DNA of 14,468 nucleotides. Source: an uncultured Solirubrobacterales bacterium. Its GTDB lineage: Bacteria > Actinomycetota > Thermoleophilia > Solirubrobacterales > Solirubrobacteraceae. The notes beneath the pieces are model-generated. The model was not told the origin of the DNA and did not search any database. It worked only from the letters and a program-made list of their open reading frames with translations. The stretch spans positions 1 through 14,468 of the forward strand of contig CAIKSH010000177.1 of assembly GCA_903830015.1 (NCBI GenBank). The letters are read 5' to 3'. The position numbers and the translations under genes were made by a program. Shown here one piece after another: positions 1 through 13,062 of the stretch. How positions within the stretch are numbered: the first letter of the stretch is position 1; each line of letters starts with the position of its first letter.

Positions 1-1046
1 ACGTGCACCCCGGGCTCGGCGAGCGCTTCGGGTAGCCGCTCACGCGGGTCCGACCCGTCGGCGGCGCCGACGACGTTCACCATGGCCACCGCCGGCGCGG
101 TCAGCTCCGTGACTCCCAGCGGCCAGCCCAGCACTCCCCTGAGGTGCTGTTCGAACTGGGAGGTCTCGGCCCCCTCGATGGTGAAGTGGCCGGAGTTGTG
201 AGGCCTCAGGGCCAGCTCGTTGACCAGTAGCCGGCCGTCGACCAGGAAGAGCTCCAGGGCGATGATGCCGCTGGCTCCCGGAACGTCGGTGATCGCCAGC
301 GCCAGCTCGCGGGCCGCTTCGGCGATCTCGGGGTCGACCGGGGCCGGCACTAGAATCTCGCGGCACATGGCGTCCCGCTGGACCGTCTCGGCCACCGGAT
401 AGGCCCGCGCCTCCCCGCTCGCCGAGCGCGCCACCACCACCGCGAGCTCACGCTCGATCGCCAGCATCGGCTCGAGGAGCAGGCCGTCGGGGCTCTCCGC
501 GAGCAGGGCCAGGGCGTCCTCCGGGCCGTCGACGACGCTCACGCCCCGCCCGTCGTAGCCGCCGCGCGGGGCCTTGGCGACGATCGGCCAGCCGTGCTCG
601 GCGGCGAACGCCGAGATCCCGTTCCCGGTGGTGGCAAGCGCGAAGGGCGGCACCGGAAAGCCCTGCGCCGCGAGCTCGCGGCGGGCGTGGAGCTTGTCCT
701 GGGCCAGCAGCTTGGCGGCGGGAGCCGGCTGCAGGTTCAGGCCCTCGGCGGCGAGATCCTCGAGCAGCTCCGGTGGTACCTGCTCGTGGTCGAAGGTGAG
801 CACGTCGGCCCCGTCGGCGAGCTCGCGCAGGTCTTCGGCCCGGCGGCTGCTGCCGATTACCGCCCGTGCCCCGGCCCGTACGGCGGCGTCCTGCGGCGAG
901 GCGGCGAGCACGGTCAGCTCGATCCCCAGGTCGATGGCGGCACGGTGGGTCATCCGGGCCAGCTGGCCGGCGCCGACCATGGCCACGCGCGGGGCGGCGC
1001 CCTCCCGTACCGACTCTCCGGCGGCCGGCTGAGTCACGGGTCCCAC
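1..1046 (-). CDS. purK: N5-carboxyaminoimidazole ribonucleotide synthase PurK (3' end cut by window edge)
   Basis: PurK is a cytosolic ATP-grasp enzyme of de novo purine synthesis that joins bicarbonate to AIR, with ATP hydrolysis, giving N5-CAIR for PurE. Translating the minus strand from 1046 gives 348 residues before the edge. Visible are a Rossmann-like start (VAMVGAGQLARM, about 21-32), FDHEQVP (84-90), the ATP-grasp loop APRGGYDGRG (158-167), the metal/ATP region NELALRPHNSGHF (275-287) and TSQFEQHLRGVLGWPLG (294-310). Full-length PurK is about 370-390 aa, so perhaps 30-40 residues are missing. I chose GTG at 1046 because GGGGAG lies 5 bases upstream; an in-frame GTG at 1037 is the alternative. 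The start lies 1 base past the stop of the permease gene, so the two are probably cotranscribed and coupled. PurK usually reads NELAPRPHNSGH; here the Pro is Leu. Confidence 0.95.
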   Translation of the reverse strand, partial: MGPVTQPAAGESVREGAAPRVAMVGAGQLARMTHRAAIDLGIELTVLAASPQDAAVRAGARAVIGSSRRAEDLRELADGADVLTFDHEQVPPELLEDLAAEGLNLQPAPAAKLLAQDKLHARRELAAQGFPVPPFALATTGNGISAFAAEHGWPIVAKAPRGGYDGRGVSVVDGPEDALALLAESPDGLLLEPMLAIERELAVVVARSASGEARAYPVAETVQRDAMCREILVPAPVDPEIAEAARELALAITDVPGASGIIALELFLVDGRLLVNELALRPHNSGHFTIEGAETSQFEQHLRGVLGWPLGVTELTAPAVAMVNVVGAADGSDPRERLPEALAEPGVH

Positions 1047-1047
1047 G

Positions 1048-2013
1048 TCAGCTCCCCGCCACGAGCTTGGCCAGCTCGAGATAGAGGGGTATCCCGACGA
1101 TCAGGTTGAACGGGAAGGTCACGCCGATGGCCAGCGGCAGGGTGAGGCCGGGGTTGGCTTCCGGAAGCGCGAGCCGCATGGCCGCCGGGGCGGCGATGTA
1201 CGAAGCGCTGGCTGCCAGCGTGGCCAGCAGGGCGGTGTCGACGGCGTTCATGCCGATCGACCAGCCGAGCAGGATTCCCATCGCGGCGCCGATCAGCGGC
1301 ATGTAGACGGCGAAGGCGATCAGCCGCCAGCCGGCCTCCTTCAGCGCGCCGATCCGGCTGAAGGCGAGCAGGCCCATGTCGAGCAGGAAGAGGGCAAGCA
1401 CCCCGGTGAAGGGGGCGACGAAGAACCCGTCCATGCTCTCCATGCCCTTGGCGCCGAGCGCCATCCCGATGACCGTCGCCCCAAGGAGCACTACGACGCT
1501 GCCGGTGGTGAGGGCCTCGCGCAGGACCTCGCCGGTGCTCTGGCCGGTGTTCTCGCCCGAGCGGCGGGCAAGCATCACGCCGACGGCGATCGCCGGGGCC
1601 TCCATCAGGGCCAGGACGGCCGGCATGTATCCGGAGGGCGGGTTGCCGAGCTGCTCGTAGAGGGCGACGGCGGCCCCGAAGGTGACGAGGCTGACCGATC
1701 CGTAGTGGGCGGCGATCGAGGCGGCATCGACCCGCTTGACCGGAGCGAAGCGTCGCAGGAGCGCAAAGGCCACGAACGGAATGGCGAACCCGAGGACCGC
1801 ACCGGCTCCCAGCGCAAGGAAGGCGTCCGAGCCGAAACCGGATTCCCGCAGCTGCGCGCCGCCCTTGAACCCGATCGCCGCCATCAGGTAGATGGCCAGG
1901 GCCTGGGCGACCTGCTGGGGCAGCCCGACGTTTGAGCGGATGGTGGCCGCAAAGGCTCCGAGGGCGAAGAAGAGAACGCCGGGCGACGCGAGGTTTCCGA
2001 GGGCCGCGCTCAC
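1048..2013 (-). CDS. SbtA/DUF897-type (sodium-dependent bicarbonate transporter family) permease
   Basis: This is a 321-aa polytopic inner-membrane protein of the family that includes cyanobacterial SbtA, a Na+/HCO3- symporter. About ten hydrophobic segments are visible. Family landmarks are LMAAIGFKGG (43-52), AAHYGSVS (101-108), GYMPAVLALMEAPAIAVGV (128-146), FLLDMGLLAFSRIG (209-222), ASASYIAAPAAMR (268-280) and PEANPG (284-289). I chose GTG at 2013 because GGAG lies 8 bases upstream and the first hydrophobic segment follows. Open reading continues upstream across the promoter and into the divergent gene, where a longer start is implausible. The protein lacks the long hydrophilic middle loop of cyanobacterial SbtA, and the segment I recall there as SSSDISGPP is replaced. 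Bicarbonate as substrate is therefore inferred from family and from purK downstream. No SbtB/PII-like gene is adjacent. Confidence 0.85.
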   Translation of the reverse strand: MSAALGNLASPGVLFFALGAFAATIRSNVGLPQQVAQALAIYLMAAIGFKGGAQLRESGFGSDAFLALGAGAVLGFAIPFVAFALLRRFAPVKRVDAASIAAHYGSVSLVTFGAAVALYEQLGNPPSGYMPAVLALMEAPAIAVGVMLARRSGENTGQSTGEVLREALTTGSVVVLLGATVIGMALGAKGMESMDGFFVAPFTGVLALFLLDMGLLAFSRIGALKEAGWRLIAFAVYMPLIGAAMGILLGWSIGMNAVDTALLATLAASASYIAAPAAMRLALPEANPGLTLPLAIGVTFPFNLIVGIPLYLELAKLVAGS

Positions 2014-2048
2014 GAACCGGGCTCCGGACGGGAATTCATATGCCTCAC

Positions 2049-2078
2049 AATACACGATTAATAAGACGTGTAATACAA
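2049..2078 (-). promoter_or_regulatory. Candidate promoter of the permease-purK unit
   Basis: On the minus strand a -35-like TTGTAT (2078-2073) is followed after 18 bases by a -10-like TGTATT (2054-2049, 4 of 6 matches to TATAAT). The expected transcription start near 2041 leaves a leader of about 28 bases before the GTG at 2013, enough for the GGAG ribosome site. The segment is strikingly AT-rich for this genome. Assigned by eye only. Confidence 0.45.
2051..2072. promoter_or_regulatory. Inverted repeat, probable operator of the divergent wHTH regulator
   Basis: TACACG (2051-2056) and CGTGTA (2067-2072) are perfect inverted copies separated by 10 AT-rich bases. The 22-bp site lies almost entirely in the spacer of the predicted permease promoter and about 10 bases upstream of the regulator's -35 region. 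That is where a dimeric winged-helix repressor would block the permease-purK promoter. The symmetry is seen directly; binding by the neighbouring regulator is inference. Confidence 0.55.
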
Positions 2079-2105
2079 AGCCTGTCTTCTCGGGCGTACT
2101 TACTC

Positions 2106-2111
2106 TATTCT
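2106..2111 (+). promoter_or_regulatory. Candidate -10 element giving a leaderless wHTH transcript
   Basis: TATTCT lies 8 bases before the ATG at 2120, so transcription would begin at or very near the start codon. A weak -35-like CTGTCT (2082-2087, 3 of 6) lies 18 bases further upstream. No Shine-Dalgarno sequence separates this element from the ATG, which fits a leaderless mRNA of the kind common in actinobacteria. Confidence 0.4.
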
Positions 2112-2119
2112 CGGGGCCT

Positions 2120-2401
2120 ATGGCTGAGTGGACCTTCCTGACCAACCACGCGCACGTGATGATCTGCGTGGCGCAGGACCCGAACATCCGGCTTCGGGAC
2201 GTGGCCGACCGCGTGGGCATCACCGAGCGTGCCGCGCAGCGGATCGTCGCCGAGCTCGTCGACGCCGGCTACCTCGAACGCACCCGGGAGGGACGCCGCA
2301 ACAGCTACTCGCTCAATCCCGGGCTTCCCCTTCGCCACCCGCTCGAGCGCCAGCACTCGGTGGGGGAGATCATCGACGTGCTCGCCGGCACCCCGGCCTG
2401 A
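2120..2401 (+). CDS. Small winged helix-turn-helix transcriptional regulator
   Basis: A 93-aa protein that is essentially one winged-helix DNA-binding domain of MarR/ArsR type. The helix-turn-helix covers about residues 25-46 (RLRDVADRVGITERAAQRIV) and the basic beta-wing about 51-66 (YLERTREGRRNSYSLNP). The C-terminal 25 residues could form a dimerisation helix. No cysteine-rich metal site or ligand domain is visible, so the signal it senses is unknown. The ATG at 2120 is the first codon after the AT-rich promoter; open frame continues upstream but lies antisense in the permease gene. It is divergent from the permease-purK unit with an inverted repeat between them, which suggests that it controls that unit and perhaps itself. 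It ends 1 base from the convergent tadA stop. Confidence 0.85.
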   Translation: MAEWTFLTNHAHVMICVAQDPNIRLRDVADRVGITERAAQRIVAELVDAGYLERTREGRRNSYSLNPGLPLRHPLERQHSVGEIIDVLAGTPA

Positions 2402-2964: not shown

Positions 2965-4254
<1,290 letters not shown>

Positions 4255-8960: not shown

Positions 8961-11474
8961 TCAGTCGCTGAAGTCCATCACCTGATGGATACCGCTCGGG
9001 CGGTTGGTGTAGTTCATGGTGAACAGGCTCACGGGCGAGAACTTGATCTGCTCGGGCTGCTCGCTCTTGCGCCAGGCCGCCGGGTTGGAGCCCTGCTGGT
9101 TGGAGAGCGTCTCGACCCCGCTCTGGAAGGCCTTCCAGAGGTCGCCGGCGCAGGTGTTCACGTTCCCCTTGCCGCAGTAACTGACCTTGTAGGCGCCGGA
9201 GACCTTCTCGCCCAGGGCCTTGCGCAGGTCCTTCCACATGTACTGGTGCCAGCCGCCGTACTGTCCGCCGGGCGGGGCGTCGAAGCGGTCGTCGCCGCCG
9301 CTGCGGTTGGCCAGGTTGTTACAGAGCTTGCCGAGCCGGCCGCACATCGCCGCGTTGGCCATGCCGACCCAGGTGGCGTCGATGATCGCCGCCCCCGGCG
9401 AGTCGATGACCCCGTTCTGGTCGGAGTCGACCCGGCTGGAACCCTGCGCGTACCACTCGTCGAGCTGCTGAACGGCCTGGGTGGCCAGCGCGCTCGGCGG
9501 CTGCACCTTGTCGAGCACCTTCTTCAGGGTCGGCCACAGGAGGGCGACGCGGACATCCTGGGTGGCCCCGGCGTTGGAGGCCGACAGGAGGCTGGTCAGC
9601 GTCTGGGTCTGCTGGCGGGCCAGCTCGTTCTCCAGTAGCTGCGTGCGCTGGAGCGACTGCTCGGACCAGCGCTCGTCGCCGGCCGGGAAGTCCTTGGCCG
9701 GCTTGTTGTTCCAGTTGACGATGTAGCCGCTGGACGGGTTGATCACGTGCGGCTGCTTGTTCTTGGCCTGGTAGCCGGTCCACTCGTACTTGCCGCGTCC
9801 GTCGACCGGAAGGTCGGGGTTGACGCCCTTGGGCCGCAGCGGGAAGCGACCGGAGGTGTAGAACGCGATCTCCTTGTCGCTCGCGTAGAACGAGTTGAAT
9901 GTCTGCGGCGTCTTCTGGGCCGCCTTGACGAAGTCGGCCGCGCTCTTGACGCGCCCGTAGGTCATCTGCTGGTTGAAGAGCAGGTCGGTGGTCTCACGGC
10001 CGTAGCTCGAGCGGCGCTGCGAGAGGGCAACGGTCTTGCTGCCGCTCTTGGCGTAGCCGACGACCGGCCCGTGGACGGTGGTGTAGAAGCTGGCCTTGAC
10101 CGACTGGCCGCCCTTGCTGATCGTGCCGGCGTCGACCTTGGTCATCTTCTGGCACTTGCCCTTGTAGGTGTACTTGTACTTGCTGCCCCCGCAGAGGATC
10201 TCGGCGTAGGTGTCGATGATGTCGTTGCCGGCCGAGGTGAGCGACCAGGCGTAATTATCGGCCCGACCGATGAGCATGTAGCCGGGGAACGGGGCCGAGG
10301 TGGCGCCCCGGACCCTGATGCTCGGGCCCTGGAGGTCCATCTCCAGCGTCAGGCCCGGGTAGTTGTAGCCGATCTGCGGGCCGCCGACCATCAGCGGCTT
10401 GCCGGTGTTGCTCTTCGAGCCGGCGGCGATCACGATGTTGCTCGCTTCCTGGCGGCCGGGGCCGGGCGGGCGAAGAGCGCTCGCGGAGGCGCTGGCGCCG
10501 GGGAGCTTGATGTAACGGTTCTTGAACGAGCCGTCCTTGATCCGGACCAGGCCCTTGGGATTGGAGACGCTGACGCTGGTCTGGTAGTCGAACTTGGCGT
10601 CGGTGGTGGTGGCGGTCTCCGGGTCGTAGCGGCCCCGCATGTCCTGGTAGACGCTGTTGCCGGTGCTGTTGCCGAGCTGGCGGCGGGCGGCGTCGAGGAA
10701 GACGGCGTTGGAGATCTCCTCGCCGCCACCCTGGCCGAGGAACTGGGCCTTGATGCCGTTGAAGGCGAAGATGTCGATCCGCTCGAACTTCTTGGCCGTC
10801 GGCTGGTTCTCCCCGTACCACTTGTTGATCCCGGCCAGGAAGGTGTCGATGTCGGTGAGGACCTGGCGCCCTTCGGCGCCGGCGTCGTTCAGCGCTTTCT
10901 CCTGGAGCCTGGCGGCGTCACGCTTGACCTTCTCGGTCGGCTGGTAGTCGTAGAGGCCGAGGACCAGGTTGATGCCGGAGACCCCCGGCATGTCGATCAG
11001 CGACGCCACGCCGTTGGTGCGGGCCTGGGAGAGCAGGAGGCTGCGGTCCTGGGCGGTCACGTAGCCGGCGCCGAAGATCACGCCGGCGTCGGTGCTCGAG
11101 TAGATGTGCGGCACGCCGTAGGCGTCGCGGCGGATGCGGGCCGTGACGGCATTCCCGTTGGCGGTGCCGGAGATGGTGAGGTCGGTGATCAGCGACGGGT
11201 CGTCGGCGGGCACCAGCGCCGCCGACTTGAAGTAGCCGGTCCCGTTGGCGCTGGGAGTGAGCGCCGGGCCGACGTCGCGGAAGAGGGGGGTGAGGCGGTT
11301 GTACATCTCGGCCTGGGTCTGGGCCGGAAGGATTCCGGGCTCGCTCAGCCAGCTCACGCCGGGCTGCGACTGCCCGTGGGGGACGATGTTGAGCTGCGTG
11401 CCGGCCGACGCGGAAGGCGCGGCGACGGCGAGGATGGCGGCGCTGAGGCCGAGAACGTGGCGGTAACGGAACAC
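8961..11474 (-). CDS. Exported penicillin acylase family Ntn-hydrolase
   Basis: An 837-aa precursor of the penicillin G acylase/acyl-homoserine-lactone acylase family, which hydrolyses amide bonds of acylated amines outside the cytoplasm. Residues 1-24 are a signal peptide ending ASA. IRRDAYGVPHIYSSTDAGVIFGAGYVTAQDR (114-144) is the typical alpha-chain start. Predicted autocleavage exposes Ser345 (EASNIVIAAGS) as the N-terminal nucleophile of the beta chain. VHGPV (467-471) and Asn527 in TFNSFYASDKEIAFYTSG fit the oxyanion region. Six cysteines sit in three close pairs (428/441, 711/718, 767/775). DSDQNGVID (683-691) resembles a calcium loop. Where most members have SNNW, this one has SNIV, so its substrate is uncertain. 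GTG at 11474 is preceded by AAGGGAG, 7 bases away. It is the first gene of the minus-strand run. Confidence 0.92.
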   Translation of the reverse strand: MFRYRHVLGLSAAILAVAAPSASAGTQLNIVPHGQSQPGVSWLSEPGILPAQTQAEMYNRLTPLFRDVGPALTPSANGTGYFKSAALVPADDPSLITDLTISGTANGNAVTARIRRDAYGVPHIYSSTDAGVIFGAGYVTAQDRSLLLSQARTNGVASLIDMPGVSGINLVLGLYDYQPTEKVKRDAARLQEKALNDAGAEGRQVLTDIDTFLAGINKWYGENQPTAKKFERIDIFAFNGIKAQFLGQGGGEEISNAVFLDAARRQLGNSTGNSVYQDMRGRYDPETATTTDAKFDYQTSVSVSNPKGLVRIKDGSFKNRYIKLPGASASASALRPPGPGRQEASNIVIAAGSKSNTGKPLMVGGPQIGYNYPGLTLEMDLQGPSIRVRGATSAPFPGYMLIGRADNYAWSLTSAGNDIIDTYAEILCGGSKYKYTYKGKCQKMTKVDAGTISKGGQSVKASFYTTVHGPVVGYAKSGSKTVALSQRRSSYGRETTDLLFNQQMTYGRVKSAADFVKAAQKTPQTFNSFYASDKEIAFYTSGRFPLRPKGVNPDLPVDGRGKYEWTGYQAKNKQPHVINPSSGYIVNWNNKPAKDFPAGDERWSEQSLQRTQLLENELARQQTQTLTSLLSASNAGATQDVRVALLWPTLKKVLDKVQPPSALATQAVQQLDEWYAQGSSRVDSDQNGVIDSPGAAIIDATWVGMANAAMCGRLGKLCNNLANRSGGDDRFDAPPGGQYGGWHQYMWKDLRKALGEKVSGAYKVSYCGKGNVNTCAGDLWKAFQSGVETLSNQQGSNPAAWRKSEQPEQIKFSPVSLFTMNYTNRPSGIHQVMDFSD

Positions 11475-11494
11475 TTTCTCTCTCCCTTGGTCCG

Positions 11495-11516
11495 GCCCGC
11501 AGGTCCGTCTGCGGGC
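11495..11516 (-). promoter_or_regulatory. Perfect 8-bp stem-loop in the acylase leader
   Basis: GCCCGCAG (11495-11502) and CTGCGGGC (11509-11516) are perfect inverted copies with a 6-base loop. If transcription starts near 11520 the stem begins a few bases from the 5' end of the acylase mRNA and ends about 20 bases before its GTG, leaving the AAGGGAG ribosome site free. It could protect the mRNA end, or be a DNA operator. It has no T-tract, so it is not a typical terminator. Confidence 0.45.
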
Positions 11517-11526
11517 TGCGCCGGAG

Positions 11527-11556
11527 CATATACCCCGGGGGGCGCCGGTGTGCCAG
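11527..11556 (-). promoter_or_regulatory. Candidate promoter of the acylase and the downstream run
   Basis: On the minus strand CTGGCA (11556-11551, 4 of 6 to TTGACA) is followed after 18 bases by TATATG (11532-11527, 4 of 6 to TATAAT). It is the only AT-rich spot in the 118-base gap between the acylase and the divergent GHKL-GNAT gene. It gives a leader of about 45 bases. Confidence 0.4.
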
Positions 11557-11592
11557 GTGCGGCCCGGGCCCGCGCTGTCGTAGGCTGCGCGC

Positions 11593-13062
11593 GTGGCCAA
11601 CCGGGTACGCATCGCCGTAGGCAGTGACCGCCGCGACCTATTCCTCGTCGACGATCTCGTGGAGGGCTTTGCCCGGGCCCGCGGCCTGGCCGACGACGAC
11701 CGCGGGCGGCTCGTTGAGGTGGTGCACCGCCTCGTGACCTGGGTCAACGACAGCGCCTACCCCAACGACGAGACCGGCGAGATCGCCGTCCAGCTGGAGC
11801 TGGCCGAGGGCGCCGTGCGGGTTCTGGTGGAGGACTGGGGAGAGCCGCTGGCCGCGTTCGGAGGCTCCCTCGGCGAGGTCCCGGAGGAGCTCGCCGGGGT
11901 GGACGCCCTGACCGACGACCTGCGGCTGGTGAACCTCGGGCGTGACGGCAAGCGGCTCAGCGCCTCGGTTCCGGCCGAGGGGGTGGAGCCCGAGGAGCTG
12001 GTGGCCCTGGCCGATTTCGCCCGCGAGGCACCGCCCGGCGACGTCACCGCCGACGAGGTGGAGATCGTTGAGGCGGGCCCCGAGCACGCCGAGGACATCT
12101 CGCGGCTCCTCTACGTCAACTACGGCCTCGGCTACGGCCACCCCGACTTCTACCGGCCGCGCTGGGTGGCCGAGCAGATCGAGTCCGGCCAGGTCTTCTC
12201 CACCGTCGCCATGCTCGGCGGCGAGGTCGTCGGCCACCACGCCATGCTTCGCGAGGAGGGCATGGAGGCCGGGGAGACCGGCGTGGCCGTGGTCCACCCC
12301 GCCTATCGCGGGCTGGGGATCTTCAACCGGCTCTTCGAGCGCACGGTGGAGCGGGCCCGGGGCGCCGGCGTGCCCTCGGTCTTCGGGCGCGCGGTGACCA
12401 GCCACCCGTACAGCCAGCGCGCCGAGCACTCCCGCGGCTACCGGGAGACCGCCCTGATGCTCGGCTCGGTCCCGCCCGGCGACAGCCACGACGACGAGCC
12501 GGTCCCGCGCGGGGCCTCGCTGCTCACCTACCTGCCGATCGACCTTCGCGAGCACCCGGTCTCCTTCCCGGAGCGCTACCGCGAGCTGCTCGCCGCCGCC
12601 TACGCCAACCTCGAGCTCCAGACCGCCGAGGCCGACACCGCCCGTGCGCTGGCCGAGCTGGAGGGGCTGCCGGCGATCGCCCGCGAGCGCGACGAGCAGC
12701 GGGAGAGCACCGTGATCACGGTCGGGGCCTGGGGCGAGGAGACCAGGAAGGAGCTCCTCGACGGGCTCCGCGACGCGGTGCGCCACCACGACGACGTCGC
12801 CTACTGCGACCTGGACCTCGAGGCGCTGACCGCCGAAGAGCTCGACGAGGCGGTCGAGATCCTCGGCAACTACGACTTCTTCTACTCGGGCCTGGTGCTC
12901 GACGGGCGTCTCGGCCACGACCACCTGCGGATGCAGGCGATCCTCTCGGACAACGTCGAGCTCGAGGCGATCGTGCTGGATTCCGACTACGCCCAGGGCC
13001 TGAAGAAGGCGATCTTTGCCGACCGGGGCTGGCTTCCCGACGGCGACGCCTCAGCTGCCTGA
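11593..13062 (+). CDS. Fusion of RsbW-like GHKL ATPase domain and GNAT acetyltransferase domain
   Basis: A 489-aa soluble protein in three parts. Residues 1-125 resemble the anti-sigma-factor (RsbW/SpoIIAB-like) GHKL fold: a start VRIAVGSDRRDLFLVDDL, a helix ending in WVNDSAYPND (50-59) at the N-box position and VEDWGEPL (79-86) at the D-box position. The Glu four residues before the N-box Asn, normally the catalytic base, is Val here, so kinase activity is doubtful. Residues 155-290 form a GNAT domain with the acetyl-CoA loop VVHPAYRGLGIFNRLFE (233-249; R239-G-L-G242). Residues 300-480 are an acidic region of unknown fold. The start is GTG at 11593 with only a partial AGG ribosome site. The stop overlaps the glycosyltransferase start (TGATG). 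The acetyl acceptor is unknown. Confidence 0.8.
   Translation: MANRVRIAVGSDRRDLFLVDDLVEGFARARGLADDDRGRLVEVVHRLVTWVNDSAYPNDETGEIAVQLELAEGAVRVLVEDWGEPLAAFGGSLGEVPEELAGVDALTDDLRLVNLGRDGKRLSASVPAEGVEPEELVALADFAREAPPGDVTADEVEIVEAGPEHAEDISRLLYVNYGLGYGHPDFYRPRWVAEQIESGQVFSTVAMLGGEVVGHHAMLREEGMEAGETGVAVVHPAYRGLGIFNRLFERTVERARGAGVPSVFGRAVTSHPYSQRAEHSRGYRETALMLGSVPPGDSHDDEPVPRGASLLTYLPIDLREHPVSFPERYRELLAAAYANLELQTAEADTARALAELEGLPAIARERDEQRESTVITVGAWGEETRKELLDGLRDAVRHHDDVAYCDLDLEALTAEELDEAVEILGNYDFFYSGLVLDGRLGHDHLRMQAILSDNVELEAIVLDSDYAQGLKKAIFADRGWLPDGDASAA

Follow-up and report, generated by a model that had tools for sequence, protein, structure and literature searches.

An sbtA-like gene for a putative bicarbonate permease adjoins purK and purE in Solirubrobacterales and in several other bacterial lineages

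The stretch of DNA analysed here, called the window, comprises 14,468 nucleotides from an uncultured Solirubrobacterales bacterium (GenBank assembly GCA_903830015.1) and is the whole of contig CAIKSH010000177.1 (C177) of a draft genome, G000, which is 85% complete. Near its beginning a gene for an SbtA-like permease (sbtA in the following) lies directly upstream of purK and is divergent from a gene encoding a small winged-helix protein (Table 1). The stop codon of the permease gene, TGA at 1050-1048, is followed by one spacer base (1047) and then by the GTG start codon of purK at 1046-1044, all on the minus strand; a second in-frame GTG is found at 1037. The last permease codons contain a good ribosome site for purK, placed five bases before the first GTG. 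An earlier note, made from the sequence alone, had pointed out this tight junction, and it is seen in the sequence as described there.

The purK gene scores 378.7 bits against NF004680 (cut-off 327) despite its missing 3' end, while its score against TIGR01161 is 313.5 bits (cut-off 318.4), the gene being truncated by the contig end. The rest of purK is carried by contig C87 (L038) of the same genome, which has an exact 141-nucleotide overlap with the purK of the window and displays the order purK, purE, short-chain reductase gene, TerC-family gene. Genome G001 has the identical gene order on one single contig, and this supports the continuation of purK from C177 into C87 without any join being made. 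Two longer reading frames were discarded. A permease of 391 residues was too long when relatives were compared, giving the start listed in Table 1, and a 169-residue frame from 1892 was rejected as the winged-helix gene in favour of the 93-residue frame.

Table 1. Features discussed in the text; positions refer to the window unless a contig is named.
Feature	Position	Strand	Basis or remark
purK, 5' part (N5-carboxyaminoimidazole ribonucleotide synthase)	3..1046	-	NF004680; runs off contig end
sbtA-like Na+/bicarbonate permease gene, 321 aa, start GTG 2013	1048..2013	-	PF05982, 7cye, predicted fold
purK ribosome-binding site GGGGAG, inside sbtA end	1052..1057	-	read from sequence
Intergenic region between divergent sbtA and winged-helix gene	2014..2119	no strand	sequence
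Operator-like site: AATACACGA (2049-2057) and inverted repeat TACACG-N10-CGTGTA (2051-2072)	2049..2072	no strand
Divergent winged-helix regulator gene, 93 aa	2120..2401	+	Pfam HTH_24, MarR_2, MarR and HTH_IclR over cut-off
Class I purE	L038:268-777 (contig C87)		directly after purK

The permease matches PF05982 with 360.1 bits (cut-off 27, E 1.3e-107), aligns with Synechocystis Slr1512/SbtA (PDB 7cye) in both halves (E 5.2e-25), and is 71-94% identical in three genus mates. Its predicted model (predicted local distance difference test, pLDDT, 91.3; predicted template modelling score, pTM, 0.89) finds its five closest counterparts in the PDB among SbtA chains, with E-values from 3.8e-14 to 6.5e-12 and template modelling scores (query) of 0.69-0.79, and the next matches are bile-acid symporters (E 1.6e-5). 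The family match and the predicted fold thus agree on the assignment to the SbtA-type permeases that the earlier note had made.

A set of 61 related genomes, the window's own included, was searched; 17 of these belong to the window's genus, and many of the 17 are incomplete. PF05982 is found in four of the 61, all of them in the genus, and purK and purE adjoin the permease gene in all four (in the window's own genome purE is counted via contig C87). The one-base gap between sbtA and purK is repeated in G015, G008 and G001, in the last with an ATG start, and in G264 the two genes overlap by 8 nucleotides. Sixteen relatives have purK, 14 over the TIGR01161 cut-off and two with the gene cut by contig ends, and the same 16 have a high-scoring PurE which by its coordinates adjoins purK. 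Within the genus purK is present in five of 17 genomes and sbtA in four of those five (Fisher P 0.0035 for sbtA versus purK among the 61, ignoring shared descent). In G040 and G026, which have purK and lack sbtA, the block consists of purK, purE and the reductase gene, and sbtA was therefore probably added upstream of an existing block.

In a draw of 399 genomes from the class (Thermoleophilia), which leaves G015 outside and in which the PF05982 and purK searches are taken as covering the same genomes, PF05982 is found in 22 and purK (E 1e-60) in 95. Of the sbtA genomes 19 of 22 have purK, against 76 of the 377 others (Fisher P 2.6e-10, phylogeny being ignored); G140, G171 and G288 are the sbtA genomes not among the purK set. 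In six of the 22 (G000, G001, G008, G264, G209 and G187) purK or purE is directly beside sbtA. In G209 (L184, G209:C42) the sbtA adjoining purK-purE consists of fragments only, representing either a decaying copy or an assembly error. In G124 (L186, G124:C89, 1491-7845) purE-purK lies around 4 kb downstream of sbtA on the same strand, with 2-oxoacid oxidoreductase-like genes, named by eye, in between. This looser linkage was seen after more sequence had been fetched and is left out of the counts; for many class and phylum loci the flanks are only about 1.5 kb, so that looser links are missed.

The linkage is also found outside the class. A draw of 396 genomes from the phylum gave a PF05982 match in 22, 19 of them over the cut-off, with purK or purE beside sbtA in G000, G008, G501 and G530. 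When the distinct phylum genomes with PF05982 over the cut-off are taken together, nine of 38 are linked, namely the six from the class plus G015, G501 and G530. In G501 (L236, 3549-6795), which belongs to another family of the phylum and has a different upstream sequence, sbtA is divergent from purK-purE and a winged-helix gene. A further 80 named loci are the best 80 of 585 confirmed stretches and lean to Alphaproteobacteria; five of them, from Verrucomicrobiota and Gammaproteobacteria, are linked. L127, L132 and L175 (Verrucomicrobiota) have sbtA-sbtB-purK(-purE), L175 being cut by the contig end, L157 has sbtA-sbtB-purE-purK, and L153, from a metagenome-assembled genome of the Pseudomonadales, has purK-purE-sbtA-sbtB. 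When sbtB is ignored, four arrangements are found: sbtA-purK-purE, sbtA-purE-purK (G187 and L157), purK-purE-sbtA (L153 and G530), and the divergent sbtA/purK-purE (G501). For five linked loci of 80 to arise by chance a binomial estimate gives P from 7e-5 to 3e-6 (eight slots, 1500-3000 genes), treating the loci as independent when three of the five are from one clade.

A tree was made by a quick method from 73 of 120 SbtA rows, 13 of them linked; rows shorter than 230 residues and five long paralogues were dropped, the unlinked rows of L102-L181 were thinned to every second one, and three long-branch rows were flagged. On this tree the linked label needs nine changes, seven of which are forced by starred branches, while shuffled labels need 12.2 on average. 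These label changes mean that the linkage formed, or formed and was lost, more than once. L157 and G187, which share the same gene order and an unresolved fork, might represent one event. The earlier note would have been refuted by a permease-purK adjacency that is not conserved in relatives; the adjacency is present in all four genus genomes with the permease as well as, in new orders, in other families and phyla. The gap repeated in genus mates and the linkage across phyla together indicate that the junction is more than chance. That the genes are chance neighbours, sbtA having come to lie in front of a ready-made purK-purE operon whose surroundings it merely uses, would agree with the blocks in G040 and G026, to which sbtA was probably a later addition, and with most sbtA genes elsewhere not being beside purK. 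It is hard to reconcile with linkage in several lineages and in four relative arrangements, with the tight junction retained in genus mates, and with the class-wide co-occurrence of sbtA and purK; we regard this reading as very improbable.

When it comes to the genes beside sbtA in general, neighbours in the named loci were called by a simple longest-reading-frame rule, scanning 77 of 78 loci downstream (L123, with a 5-kb reading frame, was omitted) and 76 upstream. An sbtB gene is present in 74 of the 80 loci. The gene following sbtA(-sbtB) encodes a carbonic anhydrase in 17 loci, a LysR protein in four, PurK in three and PurE in one; upstream there is a lipoyl-synthase-type radical SAM gene in 18, a LysR gene in nine, and purE and a carbonic anhydrase gene in one each. 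Such genes would be expected next to one that encodes a bicarbonate importer. A beta carbonic anhydrase gene also directly follows sbtA in L084-L086, L088, L090 and L096 from family f5 of the class (checked with Pfam for L084). L132 (5219-12518, from a Verrucomicrobia metagenome-assembled genome) displays the order carbonic anhydrase, sbtA, sbtB, purK, purE, pyruvate carboxylase, bringing together genes for the making and the use of bicarbonate.

The substrate can also be approached through the binding site. Docking has led to S114, Y140, S324, and S327 being proposed as HCO3- site residues of Synechocystis SbtA (PMC8352866). Mapped via the permease/7cye alignment, S114 and S324 are conserved in all 114 aligned SbtA sequences and Y140 and S327 in none of them, sbtB-linked ones included. 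No sbtB adjoins sbtA in any of the four genus loci. The two replacements throughout the sampled subfamily and the lack of a neighbouring sbtB in the genus would fit a permease for another anion or a purine-related solute, the bicarbonate label being wrong for this subfamily. We consider this improbable given that the same subfamily is so often coupled to sbtB (in two of the 74 loci at an odd position), that carbonic anhydrase genes come next in 17 of 77 loci, that both serines S114 and S324 are invariant, and that the SbtA structures are far ahead of the bile-acid symporters. Bicarbonate is likely to be the substrate, as judged by family, fold, and neighbours, and not by site identity.

A bicarbonate importer might serve more than one pathway. 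Bicarbonate in the cytosol is a shared pool, and SbtA could feed all carboxylases, that is acetyl-CoA carboxylase, carbamoyl-phosphate synthetase and pyruvate carboxylase as well as PurK, sharing an operon with purK-purE only through the same low-carbon or fast-growth demand. Most sbtA loci adjoin sbtB, carbonic anhydrase or LysR genes and not purine genes, sbtA and purK-purE are on separate contigs in G217, and the gene after purE in L132 encodes a pyruvate carboxylase. Against such a general supply, purK and purE are the commonest bicarbonate-using biosynthetic neighbours (among the families listed, 25 of 68 and 25 of 56), and a biotin-carboxylase signature was found only in L132 among the 80 named loci. 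The pyruvate carboxylase gene slightly lowered our confidence in a role in purine synthesis and raised that in general supply by as little; we see the latter as a possible but doubtful explanation. The earlier note had proposed a supply dedicated to purines, and that part of its claim is not supported; L132 has its pyruvate carboxylase gene, and imported bicarbonate enters a common pool. Two further roles were considered for SbtA. Replacement of carbonic anhydrase was rejected as a simple rule, as PF00484 matches are present in sbtA carriers too, and a link to RuBisCO carbon fixation was looked for in ten genomes (nine with sbtA, eight linked; several incomplete), in none of which RuBisCO was found.

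The PurE proteins of the genus are of two types. In the window's genome their genes lie off the window, where the earlier note could not see them. The purE on C87 encodes the GGAAHLPG loop with its histidine (His75 in the E. coli enzyme), and its nearest solved structures are class I. The motif GAGGAAHLPG is found in 16 of 16 PurEs adjoining purK in the relatives and in five of five from other linked clusters. The second type, here called type B, has GAG(L/M/I)(S/A)AALPG in 18 of 18 sequences examined, lacks the GGAAHLPG histidine and forms one clade; the histidine of the SAH motif is kept in all PurE rows of both types. Type B, recognized as a lower-scoring PF00731 match, is present in 15 of the 17 genus genomes, the motif having been checked in nine. 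Both types are found in G000, G005, G008 and G015, in G008 on one contig; the type B gene of the window's genome is L188 (G000:C279), and further type B loci are L187, L189 and L191. That type B should be plain class II was rejected, as the G011 copy is nearer class I structures overall (146 bits against class I structure 1o4v versus 39 bits against class II structure 3rg8). Most genomes with type B yielded no purK, so the enzyme probably functions independently of PurK, and presumably it uses CO2.

G001 carries a 90% identical copy of the winged-helix gene in the corresponding position, and G264 and G217 have copies of about 60% identity. In the genus the gene occurs in the same five genomes as purK, which perhaps form a single subclade; in G008 and G015 it lies away from sbtA. 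The two genes adjoin in G000, G001, G264 and G217, and also in G603, G520, G428 and G637 (there on the same strand), and they are near each other in L124, L130, L144 and L179 (Pseudomonadota and Planctomycetota); among these twelve loci purK is beside sbtA only in G000, G001 and G264. In G501 the winged-helix gene follows purE. A regulator specific to purine genes was rejected, as it stands beside sbtA without purK elsewhere and has homologues beside varied genes.

With up to one mismatch allowed, the window matches AATACACGA only once, in the intergenic region; one or more such matches turned up in 79 of 200 shuffled sequences. Such a match occurs once in each of six order loci of six (the window, L005, L006, L007, L182 and L183), always upstream of sbtA at a distance of 12-48 bases from its assumed start, where about 0.5-0.6 matches per locus would be expected by chance anywhere. 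Sites of this kind are found in eight of 11 sbtA/winged-helix intergenic regions, while the best of 30 resampled sets had five. The motif was derived from these 11 regions, four of the six order loci included, and G008 and G015, both of which have the site, are thus the fresh tests. G501 was scanned and has no such site. The control by the winged-helix protein claimed in the earlier note is partly supported: the gene is linked to sbtA in three phyla and is present in the sbtA-purK-purE cluster of G501, and the operator-like site stays at sbtA in G008 and G015, but the gene is mostly found without purK and in G008 and G015 lies elsewhere. In these two genomes (L007:10544-12162 and L006) sbtA is divergent from a PII gene (glnB) and an ammonium transporter gene (amtB), identified by a Pfam scan for G008 and by reading the frames for G015. 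The glnB-amtB pair was considered as a possible substitute for SbtB.

Taken together, these findings lead us to lean, with modest confidence, towards a purine operon for low inorganic carbon, consisting of sbtA-purK-purE under low-CO2 control by the winged-helix regulator and adding a bicarbonate route to type B PurE. When CO2 or bicarbonate is scarce, a promoter upstream of sbtA would fire, and one transcript would give the SbtA-like, Na+-coupled bicarbonate importer, PurK, and class I PurE. PurK would use ATP and bicarbonate to carboxylate aminoimidazole ribonucleotide (AIR), and class I PurE would turn the product into carboxyaminoimidazole ribonucleotide (CAIR), with translation of purK coupled to the end of sbtA and the winged-helix protein acting at the AATACACGA/CGTGTA site. 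Within the genus this route would supplement type B PurE, for which CO2 is the presumed substrate and whose gene lacks a neighbouring purK. More speculatively, the two PurEs could form a carbon-status switch at one purine step: type B PurE would carboxylate AIR with CO2 as long as this is abundant, and under scarcity a regulator acting at AATACACGA would turn on imported bicarbonate, PurK, and class I PurE, the sbtA-purKE set having been assembled several times, at least partly in bacteria without RuBisCO. This is a tentative idea which we hold to be rather unlikely.

Several observations weigh against the purine operon. No purK or purE is beside sbtA in 75 of the 80 named loci or in 29 of the 38 phylum genomes (the flanks often being about 1.5 kb), and 12 of the 16 purK-bearing relatives lack sbtA. 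One of the genus genomes, G005 (73% complete), has purK-purE and the winged-helix gene with no sbtA detected. The linked label is partly clustered on the SbtA tree, five of 500 shuffles being as low, and the class co-occurrence statistics take no account of phylogeny. PF00484 carbonic anhydrase matches, mostly weak (24-133 bits), are found in 56 of the 61 relatives, among them the four sbtA carriers, so that bicarbonate need not come via a transporter. G264, G217 and G187 have class I PurE only, which makes the two-route idea local, and a simple scan revealed no sigma-70-like promoter. The replaced Y140 and S327 and the pyruvate carboxylase gene of L132, which speaks for a role wider than purines, count on the same side. 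The pairing itself is nevertheless real, recurrent and biochemically sensible, and it puts a known transporter family into a new operon role. Its occurrence in unrelated bacteria, in other arrangements, suggests a joint activation of bicarbonate uptake and purine synthesis in some bacteria. Elsewhere the window contains a subtilase-family protease gene (2965-4254) and a penicillin-amidase-family gene (8961-11747; PF01804, 306 bits).

Most discussion of SbtA-type transporters concerns CO2-fixing organisms. A recurrent operon with purK-purE, present also in genomes in which no RuBisCO was found, offers a concrete and testable reason for having SbtA, namely to keep purine synthesis running at low inorganic carbon, and the near confinement of sbtA to purK-bearing genomes in the class bears on why lineages keep or drop PurK. 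The finding also gives a candidate regulator and a candidate binding site. The linkage of sbtA with purK or purE was not found described in the titles and abstract openings of the openly licensed literature searched. In the parts of the sources consulted, PurK is stated to use bicarbonate, cyanobacterial purK mutants need high CO2, and SbtA and PurK are treated separately (PMC10880623); the absence of PurK fits high-CO2 niches (PMC3261824), and in Firmicutes the import of bicarbonate is linked with carboxylation reactions, that of purine synthesis included (PMC6689103).

Four known systems are close to the one described here. The window permease shares with cyanobacterial SbtA-SbtB (Slr1512; PDB 7cye and 8zor) the PF05982 family, alignment in both halves, the fold and two of four docked residues. 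It differs in having no adjoining sbtB, in the replacement of the other two residues and in its partner purK-purE, and no RuBisCO was found in the genomes tested. The MpsAB transporter proteins of Staphylococcus are not known to be related to SbtA. They resemble the present case in supplying a bacterium that is not autotrophic with bicarbonate for its biosynthetic carboxylations; the part of the source consulted names no purine enzyme in the MpsAB operon (PMC6689103). Type B PurE is similar to the PurEs that work without PurK (class II of human PAICS and of Treponema denticola, and archaeal ones) in occurring in genomes that yielded no PurK and in lacking the class I loop histidine, as far as the consulted parts of the sources describe them (PMC9376930; PMC3261824), but differs from class II in a sequence nearer class I structures. 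In E. coli-type purK-purE operons PurK and class I PurE are likewise adjacent; here a bicarbonate-permease-like gene leads the operon, and a second PurE type is found elsewhere in the genomes of the genus.

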